Of a DNA stretch of 31,027 bases, positions 1 to 31,027 are shown piece by piece. This stretch comes from a virus. Every line of letters starts with the position of its first letter. The first letter of the stretch is position 1. Position numbers and translations under genes: made by a program. The notes beneath the pieces are model-generated. The model worked only from the letters and a program-made list of their open reading frames with translations, was not told the DNA's origin and did no database searches. Location of the stretch: positions 1 to 31,027 of IMG/VR virus record IMGVR_UViG_3300006802_000066. The stretch is one strand, 5' to 3'.

Positions 1-163
1 AATTTCTGACAAAACCGGCACAAATTAGTTGCATCTTTTCACCGAATTAGTTCAAACTAATTTCTGACAAAACCGGCACAAATTAGTTGCATCTTTTCAC
101 CGAATTAGTTCAAACTAATCCCGAATTAACATCAACTAATTTTCTACCGATAAAGCTGTGACA
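1..163. repeat. Left part of tandem dyad-repeat array (continues from window end)
   Basis: A 58-bp unit repeats in tandem (starts at 1 and 59). Each unit carries an 18-bp dyad, AATTAGTTCAAACTAATT (8-bp arms, 2-bp centre), and a linker containing ACAAAACCGGCAC. From about 119 the array passes into a diverged end unit (AACATCAACTAATTTTCT, then CCGATAAAGCTGTGA). Bases 1-108 are identical to 30920-31027, so this is the same array as at the window end and the contig closes into a circle here. A reverse-complement, diverged version lies at 6661-6877. Possible roles are replication origin iterons, recombination site or regulatory region; none is proven. Copy number may be under-counted by assembly. 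Confidence 0.9.
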
Positions 164-212: not shown

Positions 213-230
213 ACTACTATAGTTATTTAC

Positions 231-265
231 ATAACATAACATAACATAACATAACATAACATAAC
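231..265. repeat. 7x ATAAC microsatellite
   Basis: Seven uninterrupted copies of the pentamer ATAAC occupy these bases, between the array and promoter P1. The tract is prone to length change by slippage and could tune promoter access or bind a protein. An open frame on the opposite strand across it encodes low-complexity sequence and is not a credible gene. Confidence 0.9.
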
Positions 266-344
266 AGTTCATTATGTTAAATAGGGTTTTCAATTCGTTG
301 TGTATCAGTTGTTTGAAAAAAAATAAAAAAAAACACAAAATAAA

Positions 345-378
345 TTAGGCGTTTATTCAAGAATACTAGTTATATTTG
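345..378 (+). promoter_or_regulatory. Promoter P1 with TATTC-NN-GAATA dyad
   Basis: TATATTTG (371-378) matches the Bacteroidota -7 consensus TAnnTTTG exactly. Directly upstream, 354-365 is TATTCAAGAATA, a perfect 5-2-5 dyad. No clear TTG/TTTG -33 element is visible. The same dyad plus -7 box, 4-5 bases apart, recurs at 9040-9063 and on the minus strand at 22069-22093, and P1 and 9031 also share an upstream ATTAGG. P1 would drive the rightward operon beginning at 409. The dyad is a good candidate site for a phage activator or repressor. Confidence 0.75.
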
Positions 379-408
379 CTGAACAAACAATTATAAAAAC
401 AAAAAGCA

Positions 409-768
409 ATGAAAAAATTTAAAGTCCACAACCCATCATGTGATGATACTGAGTATTTTTTAACTTTAGAAGAAGTTCATGAATACATTGATGGAGAATT
501 AAAATTTCTAAATTACGGAGGTTCAGCTGAATACTTTTATGACGAGTTTAGCGTTGAAGAAAGCGTACTAAAGTACTCGGCAATAGTTGTATCGATCTTC
601 TACGCCTCCCCTATTCTCTACATAGATGCCGAAAGTAATGTTCAGGAGTTGATTGAAAATGCTTTTTTTGACTCGTACGATGACGCTTACGCCGCTGCTA
701 TCAACCATGGACTAGAAGACGAGGACATTCATGTTGTCGTGACGAATGTATTTGAATCAAACTTATAA
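409..768 (+). CDS. Acidic protein of unknown function
   Basis: A 119-residue protein, first gene after promoter P1. It is strongly acidic, rich in Asp, Glu, Tyr and Phe, with no membrane segment except a short hydrophobic stretch (about residues 57-73, probably a buried strand). There are no recognisable catalytic motifs. Position directly behind the early-type promoter suggests an early product that could act on host functions, as acidic early phage proteins often do; that is inference only. The ATG follows an A-rich leader (ATAAAAACAAAAAGCA), as is normal in this genome. Confidence 0.75.
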   Translation: MKKFKVHNPSCDDTEYFLTLEEVHEYIDGELKFLNYGGSAEYFYDEFSVEESVLKYSAIVVSIFYASPILYIDAESNVQELIENAFFDSYDDAYAAAINHGLEDEDIHVVVTNVFESNL

Positions 769-776
769 AAATAGAT

Positions 777-1175
777 ATGGCAAGGCAAAAATGGCAAACA
801 AAGCTTACCAAAGCTGAAATGAAAAGCATGGACATCATCCAGATGTCTGTCAGGAAGTTTGGAGAAATACATGAGTTAAAATCTATAGATGAGGTAAGAT
901 TTTCTTACGTTTATGTAAGTGAAGGCTTTAGGTCTGGTGAGTACTTCCCATTATATATAAACTCATATTTCTTAAATGATGGTGAAATAAACACCGTGTT
1001 AAGCGTTATTTTAAATCCTAAAGAAGGTGGCAAGCTGTCTGTTCACGAGTTTCATTATAAAAGCGTAAATAAAAATAACCATTTCGATAGGACTATTTCG
1101 AAAATAACCCGCGAATTGGTTAAACTGACTGGCGACAATAAATTTATAAACAATGGCGTTACTACTAATAATTAG
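777..1175 (+). CDS. Hypothetical early protein
   Basis: A 132-residue protein starting 8 bases after the previous stop, so in the same operon. The N-terminal 25 residues are basic (MARQKWQTKLTKAEMK), then there is a mixed alpha/beta pattern without a motif I recognise. The low-complexity Asn/Thr tail (after residue 121) overlaps the start of a tiny membrane-protein frame at 1153. No function is proposed. Confidence 0.7.
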   Translation: MARQKWQTKLTKAEMKSMDIIQMSVRKFGEIHELKSIDEVRFSYVYVSEGFRSGEYFPLYINSYFLNDGEINTVLSVILNPKEGGKLSVHEFHYKSVNKNNHFDRTISKITRELVKLTGDNKFINNGVTTNN

Positions 1176-1233
1176 CGGCGCATCGCTTGTCATCGCTTTG
1201 ATGGTCGAAATATTTAATGGTAAAAATAAATAA
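1153..1233 (+). CDS. Putative 26-residue single-span membrane peptide
   Basis: ATG at 1153 opens a 26-codon frame ending in TAA at 1231-1233. It encodes a hydrophobic segment (residues 2-19, ALLLIISGASLVIALMVE) followed by a short basic tail (GKNK). This is the shape of a one-helix membrane peptide. It overlaps the 3' end of the 777 gene in another frame and ends 10 bases before the next ATG (1244), so it fills what would otherwise be a 68-base gap. Tiny membrane peptides in phage early regions can act as holin-like or superinfection-exclusion factors, but nothing here decides that. The small size leaves real doubt. Confidence 0.5.
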   Translation: MALLLIISGASLVIALMVEIFNGKNK

Positions 1234-1243
1234 CAATAAAAAA

Positions 1244-1702
1244 ATGAGTAAAAGAAAAACGTATACAACCGTACTGAAGTCAGGCGGATTCATAACTACA
1301 CATAGCAGTCTAAAATCAGCCTGCGAAGCTTCGGGGCTTGATTACAAGAAGTTGTCCAGAAAAAAGATGCCGTTCACGCATCAGGATATAGACTTCTTTA
1401 AGGTTGAAAACAATATCTCCTTTCATGATATGTTAGTTAAAGTATCGCTTGATTCCGGTGAGTTATTTTGCGGTTATAATTTCGATAAAATCAGTGATTA
1501 CGACCAAATAGAAGAAGTATTCATTCTTCATAATGAATACGGGATCGAATACGAGATAGAGGTGAATATTGACACGTTTTCAGAGGGTGAGTATGAGCTT
1601 GAAATAGGTGTTGTTAGGACTTTTGAAGGTGTCGAGGTGGATTTATCAAACGAAACAATGTCCTTGCTTTTGTTCGAGATAAATGAATACATTCAGCAAT
1701 GA
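1244..1702 (+). CDS. Hypothetical protein with N-terminal NUMOD/HTH-like segment
   Basis: A 152-residue protein. I chose ATG 1244 over an upstream in-frame ATG at 1217 because 1217 lies inside the preceding small frame, and because the residues after 1244 (MSKRKTYTTVLKSGGF) start a segment seen in many small Bacteroidota phage proteins. In that segment a short beta part is followed by 'SLKSACEASGLDYKKLSRKK', a likely helix-turn-helix. The C-terminal half (residues about 55-150) is acidic and unrecognised. It is possibly a small DNA-binding regulator. The stop overlaps the next start by 4 bases (ATGA). Confidence 0.65.
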   Translation: MSKRKTYTTVLKSGGFITTHSSLKSACEASGLDYKKLSRKKMPFTHQDIDFFKVENNISFHDMLVKVSLDSGELFCGYNFDKISDYDQIEEVFILHNEYGIEYEIEVNIDTFSEGEYELEIGVVRTFEGVEVDLSNETMSLLLFEINEYIQQ

Positions 1703-1926
1703 AAGTCGAACTAAGCAAAGGTCAAATAGTTAACGATCAGCATCACTCCAGAGCATCTATACGAATACTATCTTTTCAGTTGTCGCAGTTAGCTAGGGAC
1801 TATGAGAGGCTCGCAACGAACATGACGACAGGATCAAGCTCACTTAATGAGTTAGCCATGTTGGAAATACGCACAACTATGGTTGAATTAGAAGCCGATA
1901 TTGATCTTTTTAAACAAATAATATAA
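1699..1926 (+). CDS. Small helical hypothetical protein
   Basis: A 75-residue, predicted all-helical protein with heptad-like spacing of Leu/Ile in residues 20-75, perhaps a coiled-coil dimer. It starts by ATGA overlap with the upstream gene, so translation is probably coupled. No family recognised. Its place directly ahead of the recombination genes suggests an accessory part of the replication module. Confidence 0.65.
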   Translation: MKVELSKGQIVNDQHHSRASIRILSFQLSQLARDYERLATNMTTGSSSLNELAMLEIRTTMVELEADIDLFKQII

Positions 1927-1937
1927 ATCAAAAACAA

Positions 1938-2447
1938 ATGGAAAAAGAAACTAAAACGCATTGGAAGTCTATGTTGACAAACCTAGATTACATAGGTGCT
2001 TACGCGCTTAATTACGGAGAAGACCTAACCGTTAAAATAACCTCCGTATCGAAAGAAAAAGTGAAGGGAGATAAAGGAAAAGAGGAGGTTTGCACGGTTG
2101 CGCACTTGGAGGGTCAGAAGCCTTTTATCTTGAATCGAACTAATTCTAAGATGATACAGAGGCTTTATAAAAGCCCGTACGTTGAGGACTGGATAGGTAA
2201 GGAAATTACTTTATACGCCACAGTGACTAAAGTTGCCGGAGAGCTTGTCGAGTGTTTAAGGATTAGAAATGAAGTGCCAAGTAAAGAAGTTAAAGACAGA
2301 AGGTTGGATATTAGTAATGAGCGTCTGGAAGCTGCTTTAGACAATATTTTGCAGAAAAAATATACGTACGAAAAACTGGTCAAAACTTTCAAATTAACGG
2401 AAAATCAACGATTAGCTGCAGAATCTAAATTAAATAAACAATCATGA
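1938..2447 (+). CDS. OB-fold-like DNA-binding protein next to the exonuclease
   Basis: A 169-residue protein. The beta-rich core (residues about 25-115) contains the pattern 'KPFILNRTNSKMIQRLYKSP' followed by 'YVEDWIGKEITLYA', which I recognise from a widespread phage protein family encoded next to YqaJ-type exonucleases and likely to be an OB-fold ssDNA-binding partner. A basic, helical C-terminal tail (residues 115-169) follows. It overlaps the exonuclease gene by 4 bases. Likely role: helping the exonuclease in strand annealing or DNA protection. The family link is from memory of sequence patterns; the function is inferred from the neighbour. Confidence 0.6.
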   Translation: MEKETKTHWKSMLTNLDYIGAYALNYGEDLTVKITSVSKEKVKGDKGKEEVCTVAHLEGQKPFILNRTNSKMIQRLYKSPYVEDWIGKEITLYATVTKVAGELVECLRIRNEVPSKEVKDRRLDISNERLEAALDNILQKKYTYEKLVKTFKLTENQRLAAESKLNKQS

Positions 2448-3247
2448 ATAAAGAATCAGCTAAAGAATTAATTAACAATCTTAAGATCAGGTGTTCAGAG
2501 ATACATTTGATAATGGGGGGATCAAAAACCCCTAACTCCTTCACCGAAGCAAACGCAAGGAAGTTGGAGGAGCTGAAATCTAAGGAGAATCGAACTGAAA
2601 AAGAAAAAGAAGAGCTTAGAGAGCTATTGAAAAAGAAAGCTTTCAAACCTAAATACGCGCTCTCTGAAACGGCTAAGTCTCATGTCAGAAGCTTAGTTAA
2701 ACAAATCGTTTTAGGGTATGTGAAAGATATTAATACTAAGGAGATGGAGAAGGGTGTTGCTTGTGAAAATGACAGTATAGATATTTATAACTCCGTGTTT
2801 TTTAAAAGCACATCGAAGAATGAAGAATCTAAGAGCAACGAGTATATAACCACCTTAGGCTGCGACATCAACGAGCTGGACGAGGGTATGGTTACAGATA
2901 TTAAGACGCCCTGGTCTAAAGAAACTTTCCCACTAACCGATACGGAGGCTGCTAAGGCTTGTAAAAAATCAGGCTATAATTGGCAGTTAAACGGCTATGC
3001 TTGGCTTTACAACAAAAGTAAGGCACAAGTTGCCTACTGCCTTGTAGATACTCCGGATTATTTGATAGAATACGAGGACAACGTGACACCTCACGTAATG
3101 AGTGACGTGCCTTTACATTTACGAGTGACAACCACGCCTGTTGAGGTGAATGAAAAAAACTTTCAACTAATCAAATCAAAGGTTGTTGAATGTCGTATAT
3201 TTGCCTTAGAGTACCTAGAAGAAATTTATAATAAAAACAAAAAATAA
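2444..3247 (+). CDS. YqaJ/lambda-exonuclease-type PD-(D/E)XK nuclease
   Basis: A 267-residue protein with the recombination exonuclease pattern. There is a metal-binding Glu region 'GVACENDSIDIYN' (about residues 102-114), the Asp/Lys core 'GMVTDIKTPWSKETF' (about 144-158), and a following 'YNWQLNGYAWLYN' (about 174-186) matching the conserved Gln-containing motif of YqaJ-like nucleases. An N-terminal helical, highly charged segment (residues 25-65) precedes the domain. It probably resects double-stranded DNA ends 5' to 3' for annealing-type recombination together with the flanking OB-like protein and SSB. The stop and the next ATG overlap by one base (TAATG). Confidence 0.8.
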   Translation: MNKESAKELINNLKIRCSEIHLIMGGSKTPNSFTEANARKLEELKSKENRTEKEKEELRELLKKKAFKPKYALSETAKSHVRSLVKQIVLGYVKDINTKEMEKGVACENDSIDIYNSVFFKSTSKNEESKSNEYITTLGCDINELDEGMVTDIKTPWSKETFPLTDTEAAKACKKSGYNWQLNGYAWLYNKSKAQVAYCLVDTPDYLIEYEDNVTPHVMSDVPLHLRVTTTPVEVNEKNFQLIKSKVVECRIFALEYLEEIYNKNKK

Positions 3248-3621
3248 TGAACAAACATTTTATAGACGGCAGGGTCGGGAATGATCCTGAAATACACGCA
3301 TTCCCCGACGGATCAAAGGTCGCGAACTTTTCTATAGCTACCACTAAGCGATGGACAGACAGTGACGGACAGAAGCAGGAGCGAACTACTTGGCACTCAA
3401 TTAAAGCTACGGGCGGAGTTGTTGGTGTGGTTGAAAAATACCTAAAGAAAGGTGATAAGGTTACTGTTATGGGCGAACCTTTCAATCATGAATGGGAATC
3501 GTCTGACGGCAGTAAGAGGAGTCGAACGGTTGTACACCTAAAAGAGATAGAGCTGCAACCAAACGGCAGAAATGAGGGTTCAGAGACTAATCATAACCAA
3601 GGAGTAGAAGCTCCTTTTTAA
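3247..3621 (+). CDS. ssb: Single-stranded DNA-binding protein
   Basis: A 124-residue SSB of the bacterial type. It has the N-terminal 'GRVGNDPEI' strand, 'VANFSIATTKRW', the 'TTWHSIKATG' strand, 'VVEKYLKKGDKVTVMGE' and 'VHLKEIELQ'. The C-terminal tail is short and ends Val-Glu-Ala-Pro-Phe, a reduced form of the usual acidic tip that recruits partner proteins. It coats ssDNA during replication and recombination. It is co-transcribed with the exonuclease (one-base overlap) and followed by a structured untranslated stretch and a terminator. Confidence 0.93.
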   Translation: MNKHFIDGRVGNDPEIHAFPDGSKVANFSIATTKRWTDSDGQKQERTTWHSIKATGGVVGVVEKYLKKGDKVTVMGEPFNHEWESSDGSKRSRTVVHLKEIELQPNGRNEGSETNHNQGVEAPF

Positions 3622-3625
3622 TAAT

Positions 3626-3674
3626 ATCACCCTCGCTGCTACGAGGTTGATAAAGAAGTCCACCAAAGAGGTGG
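3626..3674 (+). other. Two hairpins in the region downstream of ssb
   Basis: ATCACCCTCG (3626-3635) pairs with CGAGGTTGAT with one mismatch, and CCACC-AAAGA-GGTGG (3660-3674) forms a second perfect 5-bp stem. Neither is followed by a T-run, so they are not terminators themselves. Together with the terminator downstream they make a structured, gene-free stretch of about 150 bases between ssb and the next gene: perhaps a stabilised mRNA 3' end or a small RNA. Confidence 0.5.
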
Positions 3675-3723
3675 CGAATTAACAATAAATAAATTTTAAA
3701 AAGGGGTTTTTAATATTTGTTTA

Positions 3724-3764
3724 GGGGAGGTATCTATAACCTTTTTATCTCCCCCTTTTTTTTT
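3724..3764 (+). terminator. Rho-independent terminator after ssb
   Basis: GGGGAG (3724-3729) pairs with CTCCCC (3749-3754), with an inner AGGT/ACCT pairing possible, followed by nine T residues (3756-3764). This would end or attenuate the first early operon 11 bases before the next ATG. The next gene would then depend on readthrough or antitermination, since the only upstream promoter-like sequence (AATATTTG near 3710) is imperfect. Confidence 0.75.
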
Positions 3765-3774
3765 AATCAAAAAT

Positions 3775-4512
3775 ATGGCAAAAGGAAAAGATAGCTTTCT
3801 TCTTTACTGCGATCTGATAGACATAATGCCGTCGCTTACTATGAACGATAGAGGCGAGTTGTTTACTTACATACTCCAATACGTTAACGATAATGATCCT
3901 GAAGAACCTGCCTCATGCTCCGAAGCCTTGCGTTTGTCAATAATGATGGTTAGGGGTAAATTAAAGAGAGACTTAAAAAAATGGAATGAAAAGATAGAAA
4001 AGAAGTCATTTGCTGGCAGGAAATCCGGTGAAGTTAGACGCGCTAAAAAGCTATCTAATTCGGTGGATGTTGCGCCCAAAGAAGCTAAGCAGGTAGAGGT
4101 AGAATTAAAGCCTTTGGAAAAACCGAAACCAAAAGACAAGCCTAAGGTCTATCCGTTGAAGGTAGTTAATGGGTGTAAGTCGTTGTTGAAGTACTTTCCC
4201 GAAAACTGCCACCCAAAGAACCTACTATCTTGGGTGAAGGTGTATGACGAGCTGTTGCGTATAGATAAATTAACGCACGAAAGAATAGAGACTATCGTAA
4301 AAAAAACAAGAGAGGACAGTTTTTGGGCGAAAAATTTCCTTAGCTTAGTTAAGTTGAGAAATCTAAACAGCGACAAAGTTAAGTACTGGGTGGTTTACGA
4401 AGAAAAAATAAAGTTAGAAAGCAAAAAAACAAATCAAAATGGACAACAAGTTAGCAATAAGAAATCAACATTTGAGCGTTACACTGAAGCCCGAAGCACC
4501 CGAAGAGGTTAA
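3775..4512 (+). CDS. DUF6291-like phage replication protein
   Basis: A 245-residue protein. The N-terminal 85 residues ('SFLLYCDLIDIMPSLTMNDR', then 'ELFTYILQYVNDNDPEEP' and 'KLKRDLKKWNEKI') match the DUF6291 pattern found in phage replication regions, often as the N-terminal part of replisome organisers. A charged Lys/Pro linker (residues about 95-128) and a helical C-terminal domain (about 130-220) follow. A likely role is origin recognition or recruitment of the host replisome, since no helicase or polymerase gene is seen in the window. Its last 74 bases overlap the next gene in another frame. Confidence 0.6.
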   Translation: MAKGKDSFLLYCDLIDIMPSLTMNDRGELFTYILQYVNDNDPEEPASCSEALRLSIMMVRGKLKRDLKKWNEKIEKKSFAGRKSGEVRRAKKLSNSVDVAPKEAKQVEVELKPLEKPKPKDKPKVYPLKVVNGCKSLLKYFPENCHPKNLLSWVKVYDELLRIDKLTHERIETIVKKTREDSFWAKNFLSLVKLRNLNSDKVKYWVVYEEKIKLESKKTNQNGQQVSNKKSTFERYTEARSTRRG

Positions 4513-5248
4513 GCGAGCTGTTCAGCTTTACAACCCTAATGCTTCATTTAGGACATTCCCTCCAAACCCCACAGCTATTGAATGGGATAGCGTTAAGGAC
4601 TTGTTGCTTGGATTTAGTTTTCAATGTGGGATTAAAGAACCTATCAGCGAGCATGAGGAGGACGCAATGGTTAACCATTTGAGTAGACATTTTAAGTCGT
4701 TAAATCCTTTAGAGTTATCTGAGGCGTTTAGTCTTTACGCTGCGCAGAAATTAGACTTTAAAGAACCTGCTTATCAAGCTTTTACAAGTCTGTTTGTGAG
4801 TAAAGTTCTGGTTTCTTACATGAATTACCGATCTTCTCAGCTAAGCAAAAGAGAGGTTTACGCAGAACCTAACGTCATGCTGTCCGCTCCTGCTAAAATA
4901 GCTTATTTTGAAAATACGCTATTCAAACAATACCAGTTAGTTTTGGAAGGCAAGAGAGTTGAAAGTGTTTTTGATGATTTCGACTCACACCTTTATTATA
5001 ACTCGTTAGATGACATCGGGTTTATAGATGTTTCAGACGAGGAGAAAATGGAAATATGGCAGTTCGTAACGGATGATTTGCGAGAGAATTTTAAACCTAC
5101 ACGCGCAAAGCCTAAACCTTTAAAGACGGACGCTGTAAAGAGAGCTAAAGCTTTAGCTTTCAGGTCTTGGGTGACTAATTTAGTTTTTGACGAAATAGAT
5201 TTAAGGTTGGTTTTGTTAGATTATTGTAAAGAAAAAAAAATAAGGTAA
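4439..5248 (+). CDS. Putative replication protein (helicase-loader position)
   Basis: A 269-residue protein, mostly helical. The middle part (residues about 45-135) includes 'MVNHLSRHFKSLNPLELSEA' and a 'FKEPAYQAFTSLFVSKVLVSYMNYR' type pattern that I associate with Bacteroidota phage replication proteins encoded behind an initiator-like gene. No Walker motif is visible, so it is not an ATPase loader of the DnaC type. It overlaps the upstream gene by 74 bases. The start at 4439 is favoured because the frame is coding-like from its first residues and no better internal Met is nearby. The 3' end overlaps the next ATG by one base. Confidence 0.55.
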   Translation: MDNKLAIRNQHLSVTLKPEAPEEVKRAVQLYNPNASFRTFPPNPTAIEWDSVKDLLLGFSFQCGIKEPISEHEEDAMVNHLSRHFKSLNPLELSEAFSLYAAQKLDFKEPAYQAFTSLFVSKVLVSYMNYRSSQLSKREVYAEPNVMLSAPAKIAYFENTLFKQYQLVLEGKRVESVFDDFDSHLYYNSLDDIGFIDVSDEEKMEIWQFVTDDLRENFKPTRAKPKPLKTDAVKRAKALAFRSWVTNLVFDEIDLRLVLLDYCKEKKIR

Positions 5249-5382
5249 TGAAAAAAATAAAAAAGCAAGAAAGCCTTGTAGTCCGGTGTAAAAACTGTAA
5301 AAAGCAAGACGCTGAATACGAGGGTGATTTATGTGTAGATTGCTATTGCTTAGAGAAGCAAAGCGTTGATTTTGATAATTAA
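5248..5382 (+). CDS. 44-residue zinc-ribbon-like protein
   Basis: This short frame starts in TAATG overlap with the upstream stop and ends with TAA at 5380-5382. It encodes 44 residues with Cys at 14, 17, 29, 32 and 34, that is CxxC-x11-CxxC, a small zinc-ribbon layout, with a basic N-terminus (MKKIKKQE) and an acidic C-terminus. Such mini-ribbons often bind nucleic acid or RNA polymerase. The Cys spacing and tight coupling argue that it is real despite its size. Confidence 0.7.
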   Translation: MKKIKKQESLVVRCKNCKKQDAEYEGDLCVDCYCLEKQSVDFDN

Positions 5383-5398
5383 TTTAAAATTGAAAATA

Positions 5399-5836
5399 AT
5401 GGATAATTTATTAGATTTGAAAATGAATAAAGTAGATTTAGCGACCATAGCAGGTATAAACGTGAAGGAAGCTGAATGGATGTTTCAAACTCTTACTGAG
5501 ACAAAAAAAGTTGAAAAGGATGTCTATTTTGAAGCGAGGCATTTATCTGTTTTTTTTAATGAAGATGGATATGGCAGCCTTCTGTCTATGATTAATGCTG
5601 TCAACACTTATTACAGGCTTTCGTTAAAAGAGCTTATTAATTATAAGAATTTAAGGTTCTCAGGCAGGTATAGGATTTATGAAAAAATTTTACATAAATC
5701 TAGTCTGAATCACGCGTTTGAGGCTATGTCTCAACACCACAAGCATAGTTTAGGTGTTAAGTCTTACATAAAAGTTGTAGAAAATATGCCTTCAGACATA
5801 TTGGAATTATATAGCATTCAACCGTGGTGGGTTTAA
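5399..5836 (+). CDS. Hypothetical protein with probable N-terminal HTH
   Basis: A 145-residue protein. I use ATG 5399 (MDNLLDLKMNKVDLATIAGI) rather than an in-frame start at 5366, which would lie inside the preceding zinc-ribbon gene. Residues about 10-30 (VDLATIAGINVKEAEWMF) resemble a helix-turn-helix. The rest is helical with aromatic residues and a repeated basic/aromatic pattern (RYRIYEKILH). No family recognised; a DNA-binding or regulatory role is possible. Confidence 0.6.
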   Translation: MDNLLDLKMNKVDLATIAGINVKEAEWMFQTLTETKKVEKDVYFEARHLSVFFNEDGYGSLLSMINAVNTYYRLSLKELINYKNLRFSGRYRIYEKILHKSSLNHAFEAMSQHHKHSLGVKSYIKVVENMPSDILELYSIQPWWV

Positions 5837-5867
5837 ATAATAGTGTTAATTTTATAAAAAAAAATAT

Positions 5868-6122
5868 ATGAAGTTTGAAAAATTAGGAATAGAAGTAGCG
5901 GACAAAGTTACGTTAATGACTGGAATTATAACGGCGAGAGCCTCGTATATAACTGGTTGCGATCAATACCTAGTTCAACCTAGAGGCGACGGGTCTAAAT
6001 ATCCAGAACCTAGTTGGATAGATGAAGGCAGGTTAGACGCCACTAATTCAGGTATCATAATTACACCATGTTCGGTTCGGTCAAATGATAACGGTTGCGA
6101 CATCTCCGCGCCCATTAAGTAA
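5868..6122 (+). CDS. Small conserved phage protein (GCDQYLVQP type)
   Basis: An 84-residue beta-rich protein. The pattern 'KVTLMTGIITARASYITGCD' with 'YLVQP' and 'DEGRL' is typical of a small phage protein family present in many tailed phages, whose function is unknown to me. It has four Cys residues. It is spaced 31 bases from the previous gene and 17 from the next, consistent with one transcript. Confidence 0.65.
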   Translation: MKFEKLGIEVADKVTLMTGIITARASYITGCDQYLVQPRGDGSKYPEPSWIDEGRLDATNSGIIITPCSVRSNDNGCDISAPIK

Positions 6123-6139
6123 TAATAAAAATAAATAAA

Positions 6140-6640
6140 ATGAGCAAAAAATTATCGCCGCAGCAAAAAGCGGCTATCACTAGAAAAAAGAATGCTGAAG
6201 CTGCTAGATTAGGCGAATTAGATAAAGCTAAAAAGTTGGTTGAAGCTATTGATCTCGAAAATGAACTTGAGGCTGTTGAAGCCGTTGAGGCTGTTGAAGC
6301 CGTTGAGGCTGTTGAAGCCGTTGAGGCTGTTGAAGCAGAGGTGGAAGCTAGAGAGAAATTGTTCGTTGTATCTGTAAATTACAAAGGCAACAAGTTCGTT
6401 AAGTTGATCGGGTCAGAAAAAGAATTGGAAGAGCTATGTAATGGTGTGAACATTAAAGGCGTTTATTGTGAGGAGGTTACTTTAGTCAAAGAGTTAAATG
6501 TTATTAATCTTAAAGGGTTCGTTAAGCGATTTCTTGTTTTGAATGAGCCTTTTGAGCTTGCTAACGGCTGGATTTCTGAACACTGGGTAAGAAGAAGCAG
6601 GGTTTACGATAAGCTATTTGAAATAGAAAGGTTAGATTAA
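6140..6640 (+). CDS. Hypothetical protein with Glu-Ala-Val repeat linker
   Basis: A 166-residue protein in three parts. First comes a basic N-terminal helix 'SPQQKAAITRKKNAEAARLG' (residues about 6-25). Next is a low-complexity Glu-Ala-Val repeat helix (about 44-66) made by an 18-bp tandem repeat in the DNA. Last is a small beta/alpha domain (about 73-166, 'EKLFVVSVNYKGNKFVKLIG'). The last gene before the inverted array at 6661. The repeat probably varies in length between relatives and acts as a spacer. Function unknown. Confidence 0.65.
   Translation: MSKKLSPQQKAAITRKKNAEAARLGELDKAKKLVEAIDLENELEAVEAVEAVEAVEAVEAVEAVEAEVEAREKLFVVSVNYKGNKFVKLIGSEKELEELCNGVNIKGVYCEEVTLVKELNVINLKGFVKRFLVLNEPFELANGWISEHWVRRSRVYDKLFEIERLD
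6269..6336 (+). repeat. 18-bp in-frame tandem repeat (3.7 copies)
   Basis: GAGGCTGTTGAAGCCGTT repeats at 6269, 6287 and 6305, with a partial copy from 6323. Being a multiple of three, changes in copy number keep the frame. The copies are identical, so expansion is recent. Confidence 0.95.
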
Positions 6641-6660
6641 AAACTGAAATATTAAGACCA

Positions 6661-6877
6661 ATTAATCACAGCTTTATCGGCAGAAAATTAGTTGATGTTA
6701 ATTCTGTATTAGTCTAAACTAATTTGTGTCGGATTTGTCAGAAATTAGTTTGAACTAATTCAGTGAAAAGCTGTAACTAATTTGTGCCGGATTTCAACAA
6801 ATTAAGTTTAAACTAAACAGTGAATAGTTTCAACTTAATTTGTTATAAAAAATAAACAAAACGAACAACTGTTAATT
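6661..6877. repeat. Inverted, diverged copy of the end array (IR-R)
   Basis: The reverse complement of this stretch aligns, unit by unit, with the sequence running from 30791 through the window end into 1-163. The matched parts are the GTTCGTTTTGTTTATTTTT tract, the AACAAATTAAGTT...AACTTAATTTGTT dyad unit (arms 6796-6808 and 6832-6844), one AATTAGTT-NN-AACTAATT unit, and the end unit with AACATCAACTAATTTTCTGCCGATAAAGCTGTGA. Only one central unit is present here, against at least three in the other copy. The two copies differ at many positions, so the repeat is old but maintained. The gene-free gap 6641-6877 is almost entirely this element. Confidence 0.9.
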
Positions 6878-7348
6878 ATGATACACACAGCAAAAGAGCT
6901 TGAGGCAATGCTTGGTACTCCCGAGGAAGCTAAAGCGGACATAGTAAAATTAACACTTCCATTCCCTATGCGATTGTCTTGGGATAAAAAAACAGTAATA
7001 ACAACTGTTAGATGTCATGAAGCGGTAGCTTCAAGTCTAAAAGCAGCTCTTGAGGAGATATTATTTCATTACGGTTTTGGAATTATTCGAGAGTTGGGAA
7101 TGGATTTGTTTGGGGGGATTTATAATGTCCGTAAAACTAGAGGTGGGAATGATTTTTCTTCTCATTCTTGGGGGGTATCTATAGATTTGGACCCCGAAAG
7201 AAATAGGCTTAAAGAAACTTCCCGTACAGCTAGATTTGCAAGACCTGAGTACTCTCACATGATAGATATATTTGAACAAAATGGGTTCACTTCAATGGGT
7301 AGAGAAAGAAATTACGACTGGATGCACTTTCAGTTTACGAATTTTTAA
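6878..7348 (+). CDS. M15-family peptidase endolysin
   Basis: A 156-residue cell-wall peptidase of the VanY/M15 type. The zinc ligands are visible: 'SSHSWGVSIDLDP' (His-x6-Asp, about residues 106-118) and 'DWMHFQF' (final His, about 148-154). The Arg-rich stretch 'YNVRKTRGG' before the first motif also fits. It would cut the stem peptide of peptidoglycan at the end of infection. There is no signal peptide, so it needs the holin encoded directly downstream. The start ATG follows the inverted array by a single A-rich stretch. Confidence 0.85.
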   Translation: MIHTAKELEAMLGTPEEAKADIVKLTLPFPMRLSWDKKTVITTVRCHEAVASSLKAALEEILFHYGFGIIRELGMDLFGGIYNVRKTRGGNDFSSHSWGVSIDLDPERNRLKETSRTARFARPEYSHMIDIFEQNGFTSMGRERNYDWMHFQFTNF

Positions 7349-7353
7349 ACGTC

Positions 7354-7779
7354 ATGAAAAAAGGAAGGGTTCGAAATTTTTTAAAAAGCAAAGGGAAGTC
7401 GTTTGCTGGCAACCTACTTAAAGAGGTTGGCGGAGACATACCTATAGCGGGTAGATTTATTGAGGCTATAGGCGAGGTTATAGCTCCTTCGGTTGAGTTA
7501 ACAAGTGAAGAGGTGGCTAAGATAGAGAATTTAATAGCTGACAGAGACAAAGAGTTGACCGCTAGATGGGTGTCAGACAACTCAACAAGCTTAAAGCTTC
7601 CTAGGATTGTCCGTCCTATTATATTAATTTACGCATGGATAATTACCACGCTAATAGTAGTATTAGAGGCTTGCGCTATCTCGATGCCGTCAACCTCTAT
7701 AATTCTAGGGATGATTGGTGCGGTTAATGCAGGCTACTTCGGGTTAGTTACTTACGAAAAGAAAAGGGGGGTGAGATGA
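7354..7779 (+). CDS. Holin, GTA_holin_3TM-like
   Basis: A 141-residue protein. A soluble basic/amphipathic N-terminus (residues 1-60) is followed by 'DKELTARWVSDNSTSLKLPR', a pattern typical of the Holin_3TM family, then 'IVRPIILIYAWIITTLIVVL' and a second hydrophobic segment (about 108-130). A basic tail (KKRGVR) ends it. It lies 5 bases after the endolysin gene, forming a lysis cassette. A second, unrelated holin lies at 22210. The last codons overlap the HNH gene start (ATGATA at 7776). Confidence 0.75.
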   Translation: MKKGRVRNFLKSKGKSFAGNLLKEVGGDIPIAGRFIEAIGEVIAPSVELTSEEVAKIENLIADRDKELTARWVSDNSTSLKLPRIVRPIILIYAWIITTLIVVLEACAISMPSTSIILGMIGAVNAGYFGLVTYEKKRGVR

Positions 7780-8141
7780 TATTTAGAGAGGTTTTAGAAT
7801 GCCCTGATTACTATATAAGTAGTTGTGGCGTATTGTTTAATACTAGTACTGGTAAGGTTGTTAAAGGTTGGGAGAATGAACAAGGTTATCGACGCGCTAG
7901 GTTAAAGCTTAGAAATGGTTGTTTTCGAGATTATTACATACATAGGTTAGTTGCGGCGTATTGGTGTGAGAATCCTAATGGATTAAATGAGGTAGATCAT
8001 TTGAACGAAAGAAGGTCAGGTAATAGGTGTGAGAATCTCAAATGGGTAAGCAGAAGGGAAAATATGAGTTTTGTTCACAATAAGGGGTTGAGATTTAAAA
8101 ATGATCTACCTGCTGTACCTATAAATAATTTATTTTTATGA
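7776..8141 (+). CDS. HNH homing endonuclease (NUMOD4 type)
   Basis: A 121-residue free-standing HNH nuclease. The N-terminal NUMOD4-like segment is 'REVLECPDYYISSCGVLFNT', and the HNH core is 'YIHRLVAAYWCENP' - 'NEVDHLNERRSGNRCENLKW' - 'VSRRENM' (His, Asp-His, Asn residues as expected). It is probably a mobile gene that makes a break in related phages lacking it. It fits between holin and the next gene with 4-base overlaps on both sides, so it is translationally integrated into the operon. Confidence 0.85.
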   Translation: MIFREVLECPDYYISSCGVLFNTSTGKVVKGWENEQGYRRARLKLRNGCFRDYYIHRLVAAYWCENPNGLNEVDHLNERRSGNRCENLKWVSRRENMSFVHNKGLRFKNDLPAVPINNLFL

Positions 8142-8524
8142 ACAAGCTAACGAGCGATCAAATAGAGTGGTTACGTCAATTGCAACGCGGAATTGTTGTT
8201 AGAGCATCTGACCACGATAACATCTTAAAAATAGGTAGAAGTATTGATCCTACATTTAGCTTTTGTAGGCAATGTCCGGGGGCAATAAATCCGTCTGTGG
8301 CAAGGCTTTATGCTGTCGCTGAAAAGCAAATAGGGGGCAGGCTCTCTGATTATCGCGGGGAAATGACAATTGAAACTAATTATCCTGAAAAATTTTTCGA
8401 TAATACACCTACTAATAAAATTAAAGGATTGGTCGTATTAACTTGCGGTAAGGTGATGGGTATTGACACCGATGATCGGAAGCAGATGATTAAAGAGGCT
8501 TTAAAACTGCTAAATGAAAAATAA
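8138..8524 (+). CDS. Hypothetical protein ahead of the small terminase
   Basis: A 128-residue protein beginning in ATGA overlap with the HNH gene and overlapping the small terminase start by 11 bases. It has a motif 'FCRQCPGAINPSVARLYAVA' and is basic and probably helical at the N-terminus. No family recognised. The position suggests a role in packaging or lysis timing, but nothing in the sequence proves it. Confidence 0.6.
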   Translation: MNKLTSDQIEWLRQLQRGIVVRASDHDNILKIGRSIDPTFSFCRQCPGAINPSVARLYAVAEKQIGGRLSDYRGEMTIETNYPEKFFDNTPTNKIKGLVVLTCGKVMGIDTDDRKQMIKEALKLLNEK

Positions 8525-8990
8525 TAATAATTTAACTCCGAAACAAGTAGTTTTTTCTGACCAATACATAATAACAGGGTCAGCGTCAGAAGCTTATCGG
8601 ATAGCTTTTGATTGCGAAAATATGAAGTCTACGACTATTCATTCGCGTGCTTGTGAGTTGTTGAAAAAAGAGAAAATAATGAGCTACATAAAAGAAGAGC
8701 AAGATAAGCTAATAAAGCAGACGGATGTAACTAAGCAGGTGGTCATAGATAAGTTAATGTCTATAGTTGAACGATCTGAAGGTTATTTAGAGGCTGTTGA
8801 AAAACTTCAATCTAGTGATGGCAACAAATATAAAACTGACAAGTCTAAGTTGTACCTATTATCAAATTTCTGCAAGACCTCTGACGCTATAAACGCGCTG
8901 AAGCAGATAAGTAAGATGCTCGGATTTGATGCTCCGGTTAAAATGGAGCTAGATCAAAGCGTTGTTATCAATATTGTAAAGCCTGATTAA
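8514..8990 (+). CDS. terS: Terminase small subunit
   Basis: A 158-residue protein of the Terminase_2 type. The N-terminus 'LTPKQVVFSDQYIITGSASE' followed by 'AYRIAF' is the classic helix-turn-helix start of these proteins ('LTPKQ..F...Y...GNA..AY..A'). A helical oligomerisation part and a C-terminal tail 'MELDQSVVINIVKPD' follow. It would bind the packaging site and load the large subunit. It is separated from the large subunit (11082) by five small genes, an unusually wide gap. Confidence 0.8.
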   Translation: MKNNNNLTPKQVVFSDQYIITGSASEAYRIAFDCENMKSTTIHSRACELLKKEKIMSYIKEEQDKLIKQTDVTKQVVIDKLMSIVERSEGYLEAVEKLQSSDGNKYKTDKSKLYLLSNFCKTSDAINALKQISKMLGFDAPVKMELDQSVVINIVKPD

Positions 8991-9030
8991 TAGGTGTTTA
9001 TAAAATAATTTAAAAAAATTATAAAAATAA

Positions 9031-9063
9031 TTAGGTTTATATTCAGGAATATAGTTATATTTG
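9031..9063 (+). promoter_or_regulatory. Promoter P2 with TATTC-NN-GAATA dyad
   Basis: TATTCAGGAATA (9040-9051) then TATATTTG (9056-9063) repeats the arrangement of P1 and P3. The dyad arms are perfect and the -7 box matches TAnnTTTG. Upstream bases ATTAGG are also shared with P1. It would drive 9091 onward. The gap 8991-9090 has no gene. Confidence 0.75.
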
Positions 9064-9090
9064 TCAAACACAATAAAAGGATAAACAAAA

Positions 9091-9450
9091 ATGAAAGCAT
9101 TAAAATTTAAAAAAGCCCACGAATTAGCTTCTAACTGGTCGTCTTACAAATCAAGAAAAAAATACGGTAATTGGAAACTTACGTACAGAGATTTTTTCTC
9201 TTTAGCTTTAAAAAGTCTAAACAGAATTAAGGCTAATTCAAAAACGGTACTAATGTCAATTAAGAATCAAATAGCAGGAACTAGACAAGATAGAGGTACT
9301 ATGTTTAATTTTACTGGTGATTTTACAAAAATAATGCAGAAAGCTGACGTAGAAAGGCATTTTGTTGGGGCTATTATTCAGAAAGCTATTGACGGTAGTT
9401 ATATTTCAGAAAAACAAGCGTGGGCAGTAGCTTATTACGCTAGTAAATAA
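9091..9450 (+). CDS. Basic hypothetical protein behind P2
   Basis: A 119-residue, strongly basic protein (many Lys/Arg in residues 1-75) with the pattern 'YGNWKLTYRDFFSLALKSLN' and a helical C-terminus. First gene after promoter P2. The charge suggests nucleic acid binding. Not recognised; an early regulatory or host-takeover role is possible because of its promoter class. Confidence 0.65.
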   Translation: MKALKFKKAHELASNWSSYKSRKKYGNWKLTYRDFFSLALKSLNRIKANSKTVLMSIKNQIAGTRQDRGTMFNFTGDFTKIMQKADVERHFVGAIIQKAIDGSYISEKQAWAVAYYASK

Positions 9451-9468
9451 TCTAATAAAAAATATAGA

Positions 9469-9936
9469 ATGAGCAATTTTAAATGGAGTATAGCCAAAGC
9501 GGCGTATACAAAGGAATTTCCGGATGGAACTTTAAAGAGAGTGCTTGAACACTATATAGTGTCTTCAATGTCCTTTACAGATGCTGAGGCTACTATGTAT
9601 GAACAGCTTGGTGAGTTCGTTAAAGGCGAATTTTTCGTGAAAAGCATAACACCTATTGATATTGCTGATTTGTTTCAGTACGATGATTCGGATGTTTGGT
9701 ATAAAATCAAAGTTGAATATCTAATTGAGGATGCAGACACGGGTAAGGAAAAGACTAGCCGTGACATTTTTTTCGTTACGGCAAGGTCAATAAACCAAGC
9801 TAACGAAAGGGTTGCTGAAAACCTAAAGGAATTACTTGTTAGTTACCGTATAGTCAAGTCCGAAGAGACACCTATACAGGAAGTGTATTTACACTCAAAC
9901 GAACTGGAAGGGGGTAGTTATGATGAGCAGGAGTAA
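9469..9936 (+). CDS. DUF4494-family protein
   Basis: A 155-residue protein that fits the DUF4494 pattern of Bacteroidota phages and mobile elements. An N-terminal 'LEHYIVSSMSFTDAEATMYE' is followed by 'GEFFVKSI' and then 'DVWYKIKVEYLIEDADTGKE'. The fold appears to be two similar alpha/beta halves. Function unknown. The acidic C-terminal tail overlaps the next gene. Confidence 0.75.
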   Translation: MSNFKWSIAKAAYTKEFPDGTLKRVLEHYIVSSMSFTDAEATMYEQLGEFVKGEFFVKSITPIDIADLFQYDDSDVWYKIKVEYLIEDADTGKEKTSRDIFFVTARSINQANERVAENLKELLVSYRIVKSEETPIQEVYLHSNELEGGSYDEQE

Positions 9937-21193: not shown

Positions 21194-21331
21194 TTACTCA
21201 GGAGTTCCGATACCTGAAAGTCCTGATCCCATCGCTCTAGCACAAGGGTAGTACTCCCATTGTATGCAATCTATATTATTCAAATAAGCTAAATCCCCGC
21301 CCAAGCAAGTAGCAAAGGCGGGGTGATTAAT
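21194..21331 (-). CDS. Possible 45-residue protein with ATT start
   Basis: On the minus strand an open frame ends at TAA (21194-21196) just before the terminator. It reads 'NHPAFATCLGGDLAYLNNID' then 'CIQWEYYPCARAMGSGLSGI' and GTPE. The composition is protein-like, with three Cys (9, 22, 30). There is no ATG at the front. ATT at 21331-21329 overlaps the stop of the upstream gene as TAATT, in the manner of a coupled TAATG; TTG codons at 21304-21302 or 21283-21281 are other starts. The CCCCGCC/GGCGGGG inverted repeat at 21295-21323 lies inside it and may instead be a leftover hairpin. Confidence 0.4.
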   Translation of the reverse strand: MNHPAFATCLGGDLAYLNNIDCIQWEYYPCARAMGSGLSGIGTPE

Positions 21332-21762
21332 TATTTATTAGCTATCTTATACCAGTATTCTGAACCTTCACGTGTTCGGTAAAAACTAAAAGCGTTTAAA
21401 CAAAAGTCTTGAAATGTTCCAAAATCTTTTTTCATGTGAGCTTTAAACTTGTCTTCTTTTTTTTCGTTAAGACCGTTCGTGTATCGCTTGAATGCATTTC
21501 TAACTTTCTCGGGCATCATGAAAAAGTATTCGATATTCTGATTTTCAACATTGCGCATACTCGCTAAATCAAACCAGTAAGCCGTTTGATTGGTTTCAAA
21601 AAATAAAAAAGCGGACATCGTAAAGTCGTAAAAAGTTTCGTATTCTTTTGACATAAAGTCTTCAAAGTCAAGGTGTGACGATGAGTGTTTTCTCACATTT
21701 AATTTAAAAACTTCCCTTTTCTTTTTCGGTATTAATTTGAAGTACATTTCGTTTTTTTTCAT
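21331..21762 (-). CDS. Accessory protein made of two copies of a ~36-residue motif
   Basis: A 143-residue basic protein on the minus strand. Residues 33-67 and 106-141 are clearly duplicates: both follow F-x3-M-x-K-[ED]-[YF]-x-T-F-x-D-F-x3-A-F-x-F-x2-T, then an aromatic 'YW' and a final Ala. The N-terminal 30 residues are very basic. I do not recognise the motif. The gene shares a promoter (P3) with the upstream coiled-coil gene and lies in an island of opposite strand within the structural region, which suggests an accessory (moron-like) function such as counter-defence or superinfection control. Confidence 0.65.
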   Translation of the reverse strand: MKKNEMYFKLIPKKKREVFKLNVRKHSSSHLDFEDFMSKEYETFYDFTMSAFLFFETNQTAYWFDLASMRNVENQNIEYFFMMPEKVRNAFKRYTNGLNEKKEDKFKAHMKKDFGTFQDFCLNAFSFYRTREGSEYWYKIANK

Positions 21763-21781
21763 ATTTTTTTTTTTTATTTTA

Positions 21782-21811
21782 AATCCCCCACCTAAATGGG
21801 GGATTCTTTTT
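21782..21811. other. Hairpin between the two minus-strand genes
   Basis: ATCCCCCA (21783-21790) pairs with TGGGGGAT (21797-21804) with a 6-base loop. On the plus strand TTCTTTTTG follows, so it is a terminator for rightward RNA. For the minus-strand mRNA it is an intergenic stem without a T-run, perhaps limiting or protecting the downstream message. Confidence 0.65.
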
Positions 21812-21812
21812 G

Positions 21813-22031
21813 TTAACCTATTATGTCAATTATTTTAGACGCTGTATTTGCCTCGTCAACACTCATCATGTTTACTAGCACCATAGTAGCTTCTATTTGC
21901 GCTATCTCACTACGCATCCTTTTTATTTGGTTTTTAGATTCTTCTATACCTTGCTTCTCTTCAGCTATTGCGTTAGCAAGGTTCTTTCTACATTCGTTCA
22001 ATAGATAGGTCATTCTTTCTTTTTCATTCAT
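21813..22031 (-). CDS. 72-residue coiled-coil protein
   Basis: First gene behind minus-strand promoter P3. Residues 4-52 are a charged amphipathic helix with heptad spacing ('KERMTYLLNECRKNLANAIA', 'SKNQIKRMRSEIAQIEATMV'), predicting a coiled-coil dimer. A short C-terminal part ends in IIDIIG. No known family. Small coiled-coil proteins with early promoters can be regulators or inhibitors of host enzymes, but this is inference. Confidence 0.65.
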   Translation of the reverse strand: MNEKERMTYLLNECRKNLANAIAEEKQGIEESKNQIKRMRSEIAQIEATMVLVNMMSVDEANTASKIIDIIG

Positions 22032-22068
22032 AAACTTTAATTTTTAGTTATTAATTAATTGCTTGGAG

Positions 22069-22093
22069 CAAATATAGTTACTATTCTTGAATA
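22069..22093 (-). promoter_or_regulatory. Promoter P3 (minus strand) with TATTC-NN-GAATA dyad
   Basis: Read leftward: TATTCAAGAATA (22093-22082), five bases, then TATATTTG (22076-22069). The dyad and -7 box are identical to P1, with the same 5-base spacing. It would drive the 72-residue coiled-coil gene, the duplicated-motif gene and the small frame at 21194. Confidence 0.75.
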
Positions 22094-22209
22094 ACGAGCT
22101 ATTTTTTTGAACTTTTTTTTATTTTTTTTTTTGGTTACATTTTTTTCTACGTATTTATACCTATACATTTACATTAAATCAAACCTATAAACGAATTAAT
22201 TTGCTGCAC
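22094..22209. other. T-rich divergent intergenic region
   Basis: This gap separates the minus-strand cassette from the rightward holin gene. It has long T-runs, then TACATTTA (22164-22171), an imperfect -7 box with TTGG 29 bases upstream. That spacing is too long for a confident promoter. Some rightward promoter is expected here, because the terminators at 21148 and 21782 should stop RNA coming from the left. Confidence 0.4.
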
Positions 22210-22689
22210 ATGGATGGACTGACTATTTTTGAACGGAGAAAAAACTATAAAAACATGGTCGAAAACGAATGGCTGCTAAAGGTTGCAGGATTAATTGCGG
22301 GGAGTATAATAGCTTATTGCTCGCCTGTGATGGAGATATGTATGTACGTGTCATTTCTGATCGTGGCGGACACTTATACTGGTTTTATAAAGTACCGTCG
22401 AAAAAACGAGTCCGCCAACTTCTTTAGAGCTGTTCGGTCAGCGGAACTATTTACGGCAGTATCTAAATGGTCGGTGTACATGACTTGCGTAATGATCGCT
22501 CACGGCGTTCAATTATATATATCGCCAGACTTACCTATTGATAAGACTATGCTTGTAATACTTTGCTCGATCGAGTTCCGGAGTATCGACGAAAACATTT
22601 TCGAGATAACAGGTAAGAGCATTATAAAAATTTTCATCAGCGCGTTATCGCGCAATAAATCAAATATAAATGGAAAAGATCAAAAATAA
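22210..22689 (+). CDS. Second holin, phage_holin_4 (TcdE/phi29-like)
   Basis: A 159-residue membrane protein from ATG 22210; an in-frame TTG at 22201 would add three residues. Hydrophobic segments lie at about 26-50, 76-98 and 106-122. The patterns 'VADTYTGFIKYRRKNESANF' and 'EFRSIDENIFEITGKS' match the phage_holin_4 family ('D..tG', then 'ElkSi.EN'). It is unlike the Holin_3TM protein at 7354. It leads the second structural operon (tape measure, capsid, portal) and overlaps the next gene by 20 bases. Confidence 0.75.
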   Translation: MDGLTIFERRKNYKNMVENEWLLKVAGLIAGSIIAYCSPVMEICMYVSFLIVADTYTGFIKYRRKNESANFFRAVRSAELFTAVSKWSVYMTCVMIAHGVQLYISPDLPIDKTMLVILCSIEFRSIDENIFEITGKSIIKIFISALSRNKSNINGKDQK

Positions 22690-22924
22690 CGAAGTAGTTG
22701 TCACATCACCTTCGAAGGGTGACGTTGTAAAGTTAAGGCTGTACAGGGATAATATCGCTCAGATGCAGAGAAGAATAGGCGTTATAACTAGTGTTAGGAA
22801 AGGCGTTATCAATTATTCATTTGATAACATTGAAGGAAAGAAATTGAAAGCCTCGGTGGACGTTAATTCATTAGCTCGTAACGGGTATTGTTACGCAGGT
22901 TTTGAGCCAAAAGAATTAATATAA
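22670..22924 (+). CDS. Small hypothetical protein before tape measure
   Basis: An 84-residue basic beta-rich protein ('NEVVVTSPSKGDVVKLRLYR' and 'VITSVRKGVINYSFDNIEGK') starting inside the holin gene and ending 7 bases before the tape measure start. It may be a small tail or chaperone-related protein, but I recognise no family. Confidence 0.6.
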   Translation: MEKIKNNEVVVTSPSKGDVVKLRLYRDNIAQMQRRIGVITSVRKGVINYSFDNIEGKKLKASVDVNSLARNGYCYAGFEPKELI

Positions 22925-22931
22925 TCAACGT

Positions 22932-25292: not shown

Positions 25293-25304
25293 TAAATAAA
25301 AAAA

Positions 25305-27139: not shown

Positions 27140-27193
27140 GGTCGGTAGCCACCTTTAAAAAGGCTTATTATTTAAAATTAAAACAAAAAACAA

Positions 27194-28093: not shown

Positions 28094-28105
28094 ATTAAAA
28101 ACAAT

Positions 28106-28136
28106 TAGCCGGACAATTTTTCGAATCGTCCGGCTA
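28106..28136 (+). other. Hairpin between capsid and tail tube genes
   Basis: TAGCCGGAC (28106-28114) pairs perfectly with GTCCGGCTA (28128-28136), 9-bp stem. An A-run rather than a T-run follows on the plus strand, so it is not a standard terminator for the capsid transcript. It may protect the capsid mRNA 3' end or set relative levels of capsid and tube messages. For leftward RNA it is followed by a T-rich tract. Confidence 0.6.
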
Positions 28137-28153
28137 TGTAAAAAAAATATAAT

Positions 28154-30259: not shown

Positions 30260-30260
30260 T

Positions 30261-30776
30261 ATGGAAATAGTAAGATTCCTGACTGTCGAAAGTCTCAAAA
30301 ATACGATGCCGATAAATATCGACGTCGATTCGAAAATTATTCGCGACGTTATACAGGTTGAGCAAGATGTTGAGGTGATGCAGTTACTAGGTTCTGAGCT
30401 GTATGAAAAAATAACGAGTCTAGTTTCTTCAGGCGATATCTCGTTGGTTGAGAACGCAGACTACAAGAAATTGTTGGACGATCATATAATAAAGGTATTG
30501 ACTTACCTTTCTTACTCATCGTTAGTTTCTCACACGTCTTTTCAATTCACTGATAAAGGTATTCAGCTTAGAGGATCGGATAATTCTCAGGCAGCTTCAA
30601 TTGAACAGGTAAACAGCATTAGAAAGAAGTACCGAAACAGCGGCGAACTATTTGCTAACATGATGGTGGATTTTATTCATTGCAACCTTGAAAAATTCCC
30701 TGAATACTGCCCCGAAGAACCCGAAAGCATGAAGCCTACAGGCAGGGGTTACACTTGCCCAATCCAATTTGATTAA
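30261..30776 (+). CDS. Head-tail connector, DUF6712-like
   Basis: A 171-residue protein, helical in the middle ('DSKIIRDVIQVEQDVEVMQL', 'YKKLLDDHIIKVLTYLSYSS'), with a Pro-rich C-terminus 'CPEEPESMKPTGRGYTCPIQ'. The order (after portal) and the shape fit a portal adaptor that joins head to tail. Last gene before the terminator and array. Confidence 0.65.
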   Translation: MEIVRFLTVESLKNTMPINIDVDSKIIRDVIQVEQDVEVMQLLGSELYEKITSLVSSGDISLVENADYKKLLDDHIIKVLTYLSYSSLVSHTSFQFTDKGIQLRGSDNSQAASIEQVNSIRKKYRNSGELFANMMVDFIHCNLEKFPEYCPEEPESMKPTGRGYTCPIQFD

Positions 30777-30819
30777 ACAAAATGAACAGAATTAACACCT
30801 GTTCGTTTTGTTTATTTTT
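30775..30819 (+). terminator. Strong terminator of the structural operon
   Basis: AAACAAAATGAACAG (30775-30789) pairs with CTGTTCGTTTTGTTT (30799-30813) over 15 positions with one G-U wobble, followed by ATTTTTAC. The stem begins inside the connector stop codon. Part of the right arm reappears, inverted and without its partner, at 6851-6877 as part of the inverted array. Confidence 0.9.
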
Positions 30820-31027
30820 ACAACAAATTAAGTTGAGACTATTCACTATTTAGTTCCAACTTAATTTGTTAAAAACCGGCACAAATTAGTTGCATCTTTT
30901 CACTGAATTAGTTCAAACTAATTTCTGACAAAACCGGCACAAATTAGTTGCATCTTTTCACCGAATTAGTTCAAACTAATTTCTGACAAAACCGGCACAA
31001 ATTAGTTGCATCTTTTCACCGAATTAG
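30820..31027. repeat. Right part of tandem dyad-repeat array (joins to base 1)
   Basis: The array starts with a larger dyad: AACAAATTAAGTTG (30822-30835) and CAACTTAATTTGTT (30857-30870), 14-bp perfect arms around 21 bases. Then come 58-bp units at 30883 (variant with CACTG), 30941 and 30999 (cut by the window end). Bases 30920-31027 equal 1-108, showing circular closure. At least three 58-bp units exist; more may be collapsed. Confidence 0.92.

Follow-up and report, generated by a model that had tools for sequence, protein, structure and literature searches.

Inverted dyad-repeat arrays at both ends of a phage replication module: candidate paired initiator-binding or origin-type elements

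Why would a small tailed phage carry a long array of dyad repeats at one end of its early replication genes and an inverted copy of the same array at the other? We asked this of IMG/VR virus record IMGVR_UViG_3300006802_000066, all 31,027 bases of which were taken as the window analyzed here. The initial annotation of this DNA had offered, among other ideas, a paired origin or iteron system and an invertible module.

The window holds a tailed-phage gene set, including small and large terminases, a portal, a head maturation protease, a tape measure, and an endolysin. Similarities of the terminase, portal, endolysin, and initiator proteins indicate kinship with phages of Flavobacteria and other Bacteroidota, and the host is probably a member of the Bacteroidota. 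At the DNA level, the first 12 kb had no match among the records of the phage collection, and a similarity search against phage and plasmid DNA returned only chance-level matches. Two IMG/VR contigs of another assembly belong to the same virus (100% identity or nearly); in this second assembly, L018 covers window positions 21440-31020 and L075/L123 covers 292-9885. The genes on which the argument depends are as follows:

1938..2447, plus strand, early gene of PHROG 21613, beside the exonuclease gene (family scan)
2444..3247, plus strand, exonuclease, PHROG 5715 (family scan)
3247..3621, plus strand, single-strand DNA-binding protein, SSB (family scan)
3775..4512, plus strand, DUF6291 protein with DnaD-like, replisome-organizer, and O-like similarity (family similarity)
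6878..7348, plus strand, endolysin-type protein, PHROG 6584 / 17001, first gene right of the right array (family scan)
30261..30776, plus strand, last late-operon gene, PHROG 35048, left of the left array (family scan)

No helicase or polymerase of the phage's own was recognized, and this includes both DnaB-type helicases and alpha-type primase-helicases. The last early gene (6140-6640) contains an 18-bp tandem repeat at 6267-6336 that encodes a (VEA)n stretch. The sole two minus-strand genes (21331-22031) lie inside the structural operon with their own copy of a repeated promoter and are a moron-like insert.

The right array, R (6666-6880), is an inverted copy of the left array, L (30787-31027 plus 1-161). 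Repeat searches and BLAST paired 6717-6880 with 30787-30949 (164 bp, 91% identity) and 6666-6724 with 103-161 (59 bp, 92% identity) as inverted arms, and the sub-units follow an identical order in both arrays. Alignment thus confirmed the initial description of two reverse complements with scattered differences and a common sub-unit order, although the limits first given (6661-6877, 30791-31027, and 1-163) had to be corrected to those above. The size of about 215 bp also given there fits the right copy (215 bp) but not the left, which is longer because the 58-bp unit has been amplified on that side. The top inverted-repeat score was 225 bits, compared with at most 42.8 bits in 40 dinucleotide-preserving shuffles of the window, so the similarity of the arms exceeds chance and AT-richness is not its cause. 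That the two arrays bracket the early/replication module, with its exonuclease, SSB, and DUF6291 genes, was also borne out. One contiguous right array matches both contig ends, which supports a circular or circularly permuted genome. The parts of the arrays and the adjoining terminator are located as follows:

6666..6844, minus strand, right dyad array R: conserved inner end (6666-6700), double dyad (6704-6763), further half-site (6775), and 49-bp dyad (6796-6844) (repeat search, alignment, and folding)
6845..6880, no strand, A-rich outer tract of R, which also serves the 6878 endolysin gene as leader as far as its ATG (inverted-repeat pair)
30787..31027, plus strand, first part of left dyad array L, broken off at the contig end: outer tract (30787-30821), 49-bp dyad (30822-30870), and 58-bp units starting at 30883
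1..161, plus strand, second part of L: 58-bp units and conserved inner end (119-161)
30774..30814, plus strand, late-operon terminator hairpin, a 16-bp stem followed by a T-rich run, overlapping the outer tract of L (folding)

From the outside inward, each array consists of an A/T-rich outer tract, a 49-bp dyad (AACAAATTAAGTT...AACTTAATTTGTT), 58-bp units, and an inner end of the form AATTAACATCAACTAATTTTCT-N-CCGATAAAGCTGTGA. The 58-bp units carry AATTAGTT half-sites, two of which form the palindrome AATTAGTT-CA-AACTAATT; the half-site approximates ACAAATTAGTT and is arranged both as palindromes and as 58-bp direct repeats. To judge by its length and layout, the 49-bp dyad may belong to a variant form of the 58-bp unit. 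L has extra 58-bp copies, and R has fewer units, the last of which is 22 bp shorter. Positions 1-108 are identical to 30920-31027, the contig ends cutting L inside the 58-bp tandem repeat, and the copy number of L can therefore not be read from the assembly; L018 likewise stops inside L, at window position 31020. The outer tract of R (6845..6880) shares 91% with 30787-30819 in inverted orientation, and next to the 49-bp dyad both copies have an AT-rich tract (GC content of 0.28 and 0.19), in a genome that is AT-rich as a whole and has its least stable sites elsewhere.

Several simple identities for the arrays were considered and set aside. The outer tract had been described as a terminator arm, which holds on the left, where there is a 16-bp hairpin with a T-run, but not on the right, where the A-rich leader formed no terminator hairpin on folding. 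A bidirectional terminator pair is therefore rejected, since hairpin and T-run occur in the left copy only (30774-30814). The array folds beat those of shuffled sequences (z of -6.3 and -7.1), but the dyads explain this, and a structured RNA was not retained as a candidate; the arrays gave no Rfam match and no tRNA. A transposon with long terminal inverted repeats was likewise discarded, as no transposase was recognized and inspection of the outer ends revealed no target duplication.

The differences between the copies are not spread evenly. Between the aligned arms, half-site columns changed in 1 of 81 cases and spacer columns in 19 of 142 (Fisher p=0.0013), the half-site columns having been chosen after the repeats were seen and the sample being small. 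Half-sites that are kept while spacers diverge suggest selection on the sites in both copies, and this pattern points to sequence-specific protein binding at both ends of the module. Exact AATTAGTT or AACTAATT words are also concentrated here, with 18 of the 20 in the window falling within the arrays (positions 1-108 counted twice), and perfect 8-2-8 dyads of this sequence were found only in the arrays. On these patterns, L and R are probably functional protein-binding arrays.

On the left, the end of the late operon (30776) is followed by the terminator, L, a microsatellite, a candidate promoter, and the early genes; on the right, the end of the last early gene (6640) is followed by R, the dyad part of which ends about 34 bp upstream of the ATG of the 6878 endolysin gene. 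The elements in these flanks are as follows:

229..266, no strand, 5-bp (ACATA) microsatellite that separates L from the early promoter
303..378, plus strand, candidate early promoter: an A-rich tract, ATTCAAGAATA, and TATATTTG (-7 box, Bacteroidota type) (repeat and motif search)
6836..6843, plus strand, TTAATTTG, weak candidate -7 box at the edge of the R 49-bp dyad (read from the sequence)

The promoter-like element occurs in three copies (303-423, 8992-9111, and 22129-22042 on the minus strand), which precede the early operon, the genes from 9091, and the two minus-strand open reading frames, respectively, and it is likely the phage's main promoter class. None of the three contains a AATTAGTT array or any dyad array, so the arrays are an element separate from these promoters. 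TTAATTTG lies 34 nt ahead of the endolysin ATG with one mismatch to TAnnTTTG. Contig L075, from the same virus, stops at 292, just past the microsatellite at 229-266, the length of which may therefore vary.

Relatives of the phage do not appear to share the arrays. A major-capsid profile scan recovered three loci with 48% capsid identity and matching gene order (L228, L229, and L230). Two of these, L228 and L229, have a convergent early module after the late operon, and their late/early junction contains no array. In the more distant relatives G005, G006, G007, and G010, the early module runs in the direction of the late genes; L201 has three early-gene homologues in common with the window, and these are oriented against its late genes. 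For none of the window's early genes was a homologue found in L228, so exchange of whole early modules, in either orientation, seems to take place in this phage group. No such arrays were seen in relatives that have homologous initiator or exonuclease genes. Of 283 loci that were 6 kb or longer (3.9 Mb), many of them fragments and only distantly related, none had a distant inverted pair (more than 1 kb apart, E<=1e-6) at the same settings that recover the pair in the window. AATTAGTTNNAACTAATT is present in 82 viral loci, 80 of which were retrieved (L007-L086), and among these the array was found only in two fragments of this same virus. L021 was rejected as a carrier: an AT-rich TTAGTTNNAACTAA dyad cluster lies between its terminase and portal genes (3588-3960), but the phage is unrelated. 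Judged by this survey, the arrays are rare or lineage-specific. The initial annotation held that absence from relatives would speak against a paired element; absence is what we found, and it does so only weakly, since the early modules of the nearest relatives are nonhomologous and cannot refute a function tied to this one.

The same relatives bear on whether the 6.5-kb early segment could flip by recombination between the inverted arrays. Its geometry fits, the orientation of early relative to late genes varies among relatives (L228/L229; G005/G006/G007/G010; L201), and an SPP1 mutant with inverted replication genes is viable (PMC6316719). However, the arms are about 9% diverged and share no more than 37 identical bases in a row; they are therefore not being homogenized. 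An actively flipping segment is expected to have near-identical arms or a recombinase, and family scans, in which many genes had no family, recognized no site-specific recombinase, integrase, invertase, or transposase. Nor would the phage's own exonuclease and annealing proteins serve, as had been proposed, because such a pair acts at ends and direct repeats and alone would not flip a segment between inverted repeats. Both assemblies show one orientation (the second read across the right array), a flipped early operon would run into the late operon, and, with nonhomologous early modules in the nearest relatives, the orientation differences there reflect module exchange. We therefore reject the invertible segment put forward initially as highly improbable. 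It is also quite improbable, if less so, that the arrays are a relic, the product of a neutral inverted duplication of the DNA ahead of the endolysin gene, without any present function as a pair. Such a relic would agree with the arrays' absence from every relative examined and with array expansion through 58-bp tandem slippage, but the conservation between copies is specific to half-sites (p=0.0013) and long dyads persist in both.

The main and serious rival to a replication role is an operator or promoter array, at which a phage or host transcription regulator would bind the dyads, L timing the early operon and R the lysis/small-terminase operon; R would hold the promoter of the 6878 gene, and L would be an inverted copy recruited as a control region. 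We rate this somewhat unlikely, and it stays serious because of where the arrays lie, immediately ahead of the early promoter and of the endolysin gene. L has the late terminator on one side and the candidate early promoter (303-378) on the other, and about 34 bp separate the end of R from the 6878 ATG. Within the 49-bp dyad of R, TTAATTTG occupies the place of the -7 box in the other candidate promoters, and a search turned up no further promoter-like site for genes 6878-8990; the conservation of half-sites would suit an operator just as well. Yet the three clear repeated promoters (303-423, 8992-9111, and 22129-22042 on the minus strand) lack AATTAGTT arrays, the promoter-like end of L faces outward and would read the late operon in antisense, and no helix-turn-helix regulator was recognized in the early genes. 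Replication fork barriers with no origin role, likened to Tus/Ter or RTP sites and blocking forks that enter the early module from either side, are very doubtful. The mutually inverted placement at the module ends, the repeated dyads, and the barrier model for SPP1 oriR (PMC3485210) agree with them, whereas the main sites are palindromic with no obvious polarity, no Tus- or RTP-like protein was recognized, and there is no skew change.

We tentatively favor, with slightly less than even confidence, paired initiator-binding or origin-type arrays that resemble SPP1 oriL/oriR but are mutually inverted and lie outside the initiator gene. Origin function is plausible given the location of the arrays around the replication module with its exonuclease, SSB, and DnaD/O-like genes, their palindromic repeats, and the conservation of their half-sites. 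It also draws on the absence of iterons in or near the initiator gene (3600-5420), which makes the arrays the best iteron candidates. Against the paired origin or iteron system first suggested, neither GC skew nor third-position GC skew switched sign at either array, so the proposed skew check gave no sign of an origin and a bidirectional origin on this basis was rejected; no DnaA boxes were found at or near the arrays. Predicted structures of the products of genes 5402 and 3775 (pLDDT of 36 and 45) were too poor to reveal a DNA-binding fold, and a search of solved structures with the gene-3775 profile found no credible relative.

Under the paired-origin reading, both arrays would derive from a single ancestral intergenic element through an inverted duplication, and each end of the replication module would have retained one copy. 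The ligand of the arrays would be a phage-encoded initiator, the top candidate being the DUF6291/DnaD-O-like protein of gene 3775-4512; we infer both this identity and the origin or fork-barrier activity of the arrays. One array might load the host replisome, while the other might start a second fork or, once bound, stall a fork, and a stalled fork would trigger, with the help of the exonuclease and SSB, a switch to concatemer synthesis; this is the model put forward for SPP1 oriL/oriR. A stricter version, in which each initiator-bound array is an origin and a fork barrier for the other and the two set the theta-to-concatemer switch, seems to us unlikely.

Very little work has been done on origins and fork control in phages of the Bacteroidota, the likely host phylum, and paired inverted arrays around a self-contained replication module are a compact system in which to test how a small phage with no recognized helicase or polymerase of its own might direct host forks and switch to concatemers. 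Should the arrays be operators instead, they would define the early/lysis control region for such phages.

Among known systems, halovirus HF2 is reported to have 58-bp intergenic AT-rich repeats that are dispersed promoters (PMC8707807). The likeness lies in repeated intergenic AT-rich elements, the shared length of 58 bp being coincidental; the HF2 repeats differ in being dispersed promoters, whereas the dispersed promoter repeat of this phage (303, 8992, and 22129) is another element. Lambda-type O iterons are palindromic and form a single cluster inside the O gene. Repeated palindromic sites and the O-like initiator similarity of gene 3775 recall them, but here two arrays lie outside the initiator gene. 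Satellite phage P4 has two separated iteron regions, ori1 and crr, several kb apart and bound by one initiator, an alpha-type primase-helicase. The spacing of the repeat regions is alike, but no such enzyme was recognized here and the arrays are long inverted homologues. In Bacillus phage SPP1, two initiator-binding repeat arrays with an AT-rich element lie about 13 kb apart and are bound by gp38 (G38P), and the second is proposed to act by stalling forks and initiating recombination-dependent replication, in which the phage exonuclease, annealing protein, and SSB take part (PMC6316719, PMC3485210). The likeness to oriL/oriR lies in two distant initiator-type repeat arrays on one genome, next to DNA that is AT-rich (though so is the whole of the genome studied here), exonuclease and SSB genes in the early region, and genes on one strand (PMC6316719, PMC3485210). 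In contrast to SPP1, the arrays here are long inverted homologous dyad repeats, no DnaB-type helicase was recognized, and the initiator, the binding of which has been shown in SPP1, is a candidate from family similarity. Like repeats do occur at two distant loci, but SPP1 oriL lies inside the initiator gene and neither array does so here, each instead bounding the module, and we therefore do not class the pair as an SPP1-type origin. To our knowledge, a paired, inverted origin architecture has not been described for tailed phages.
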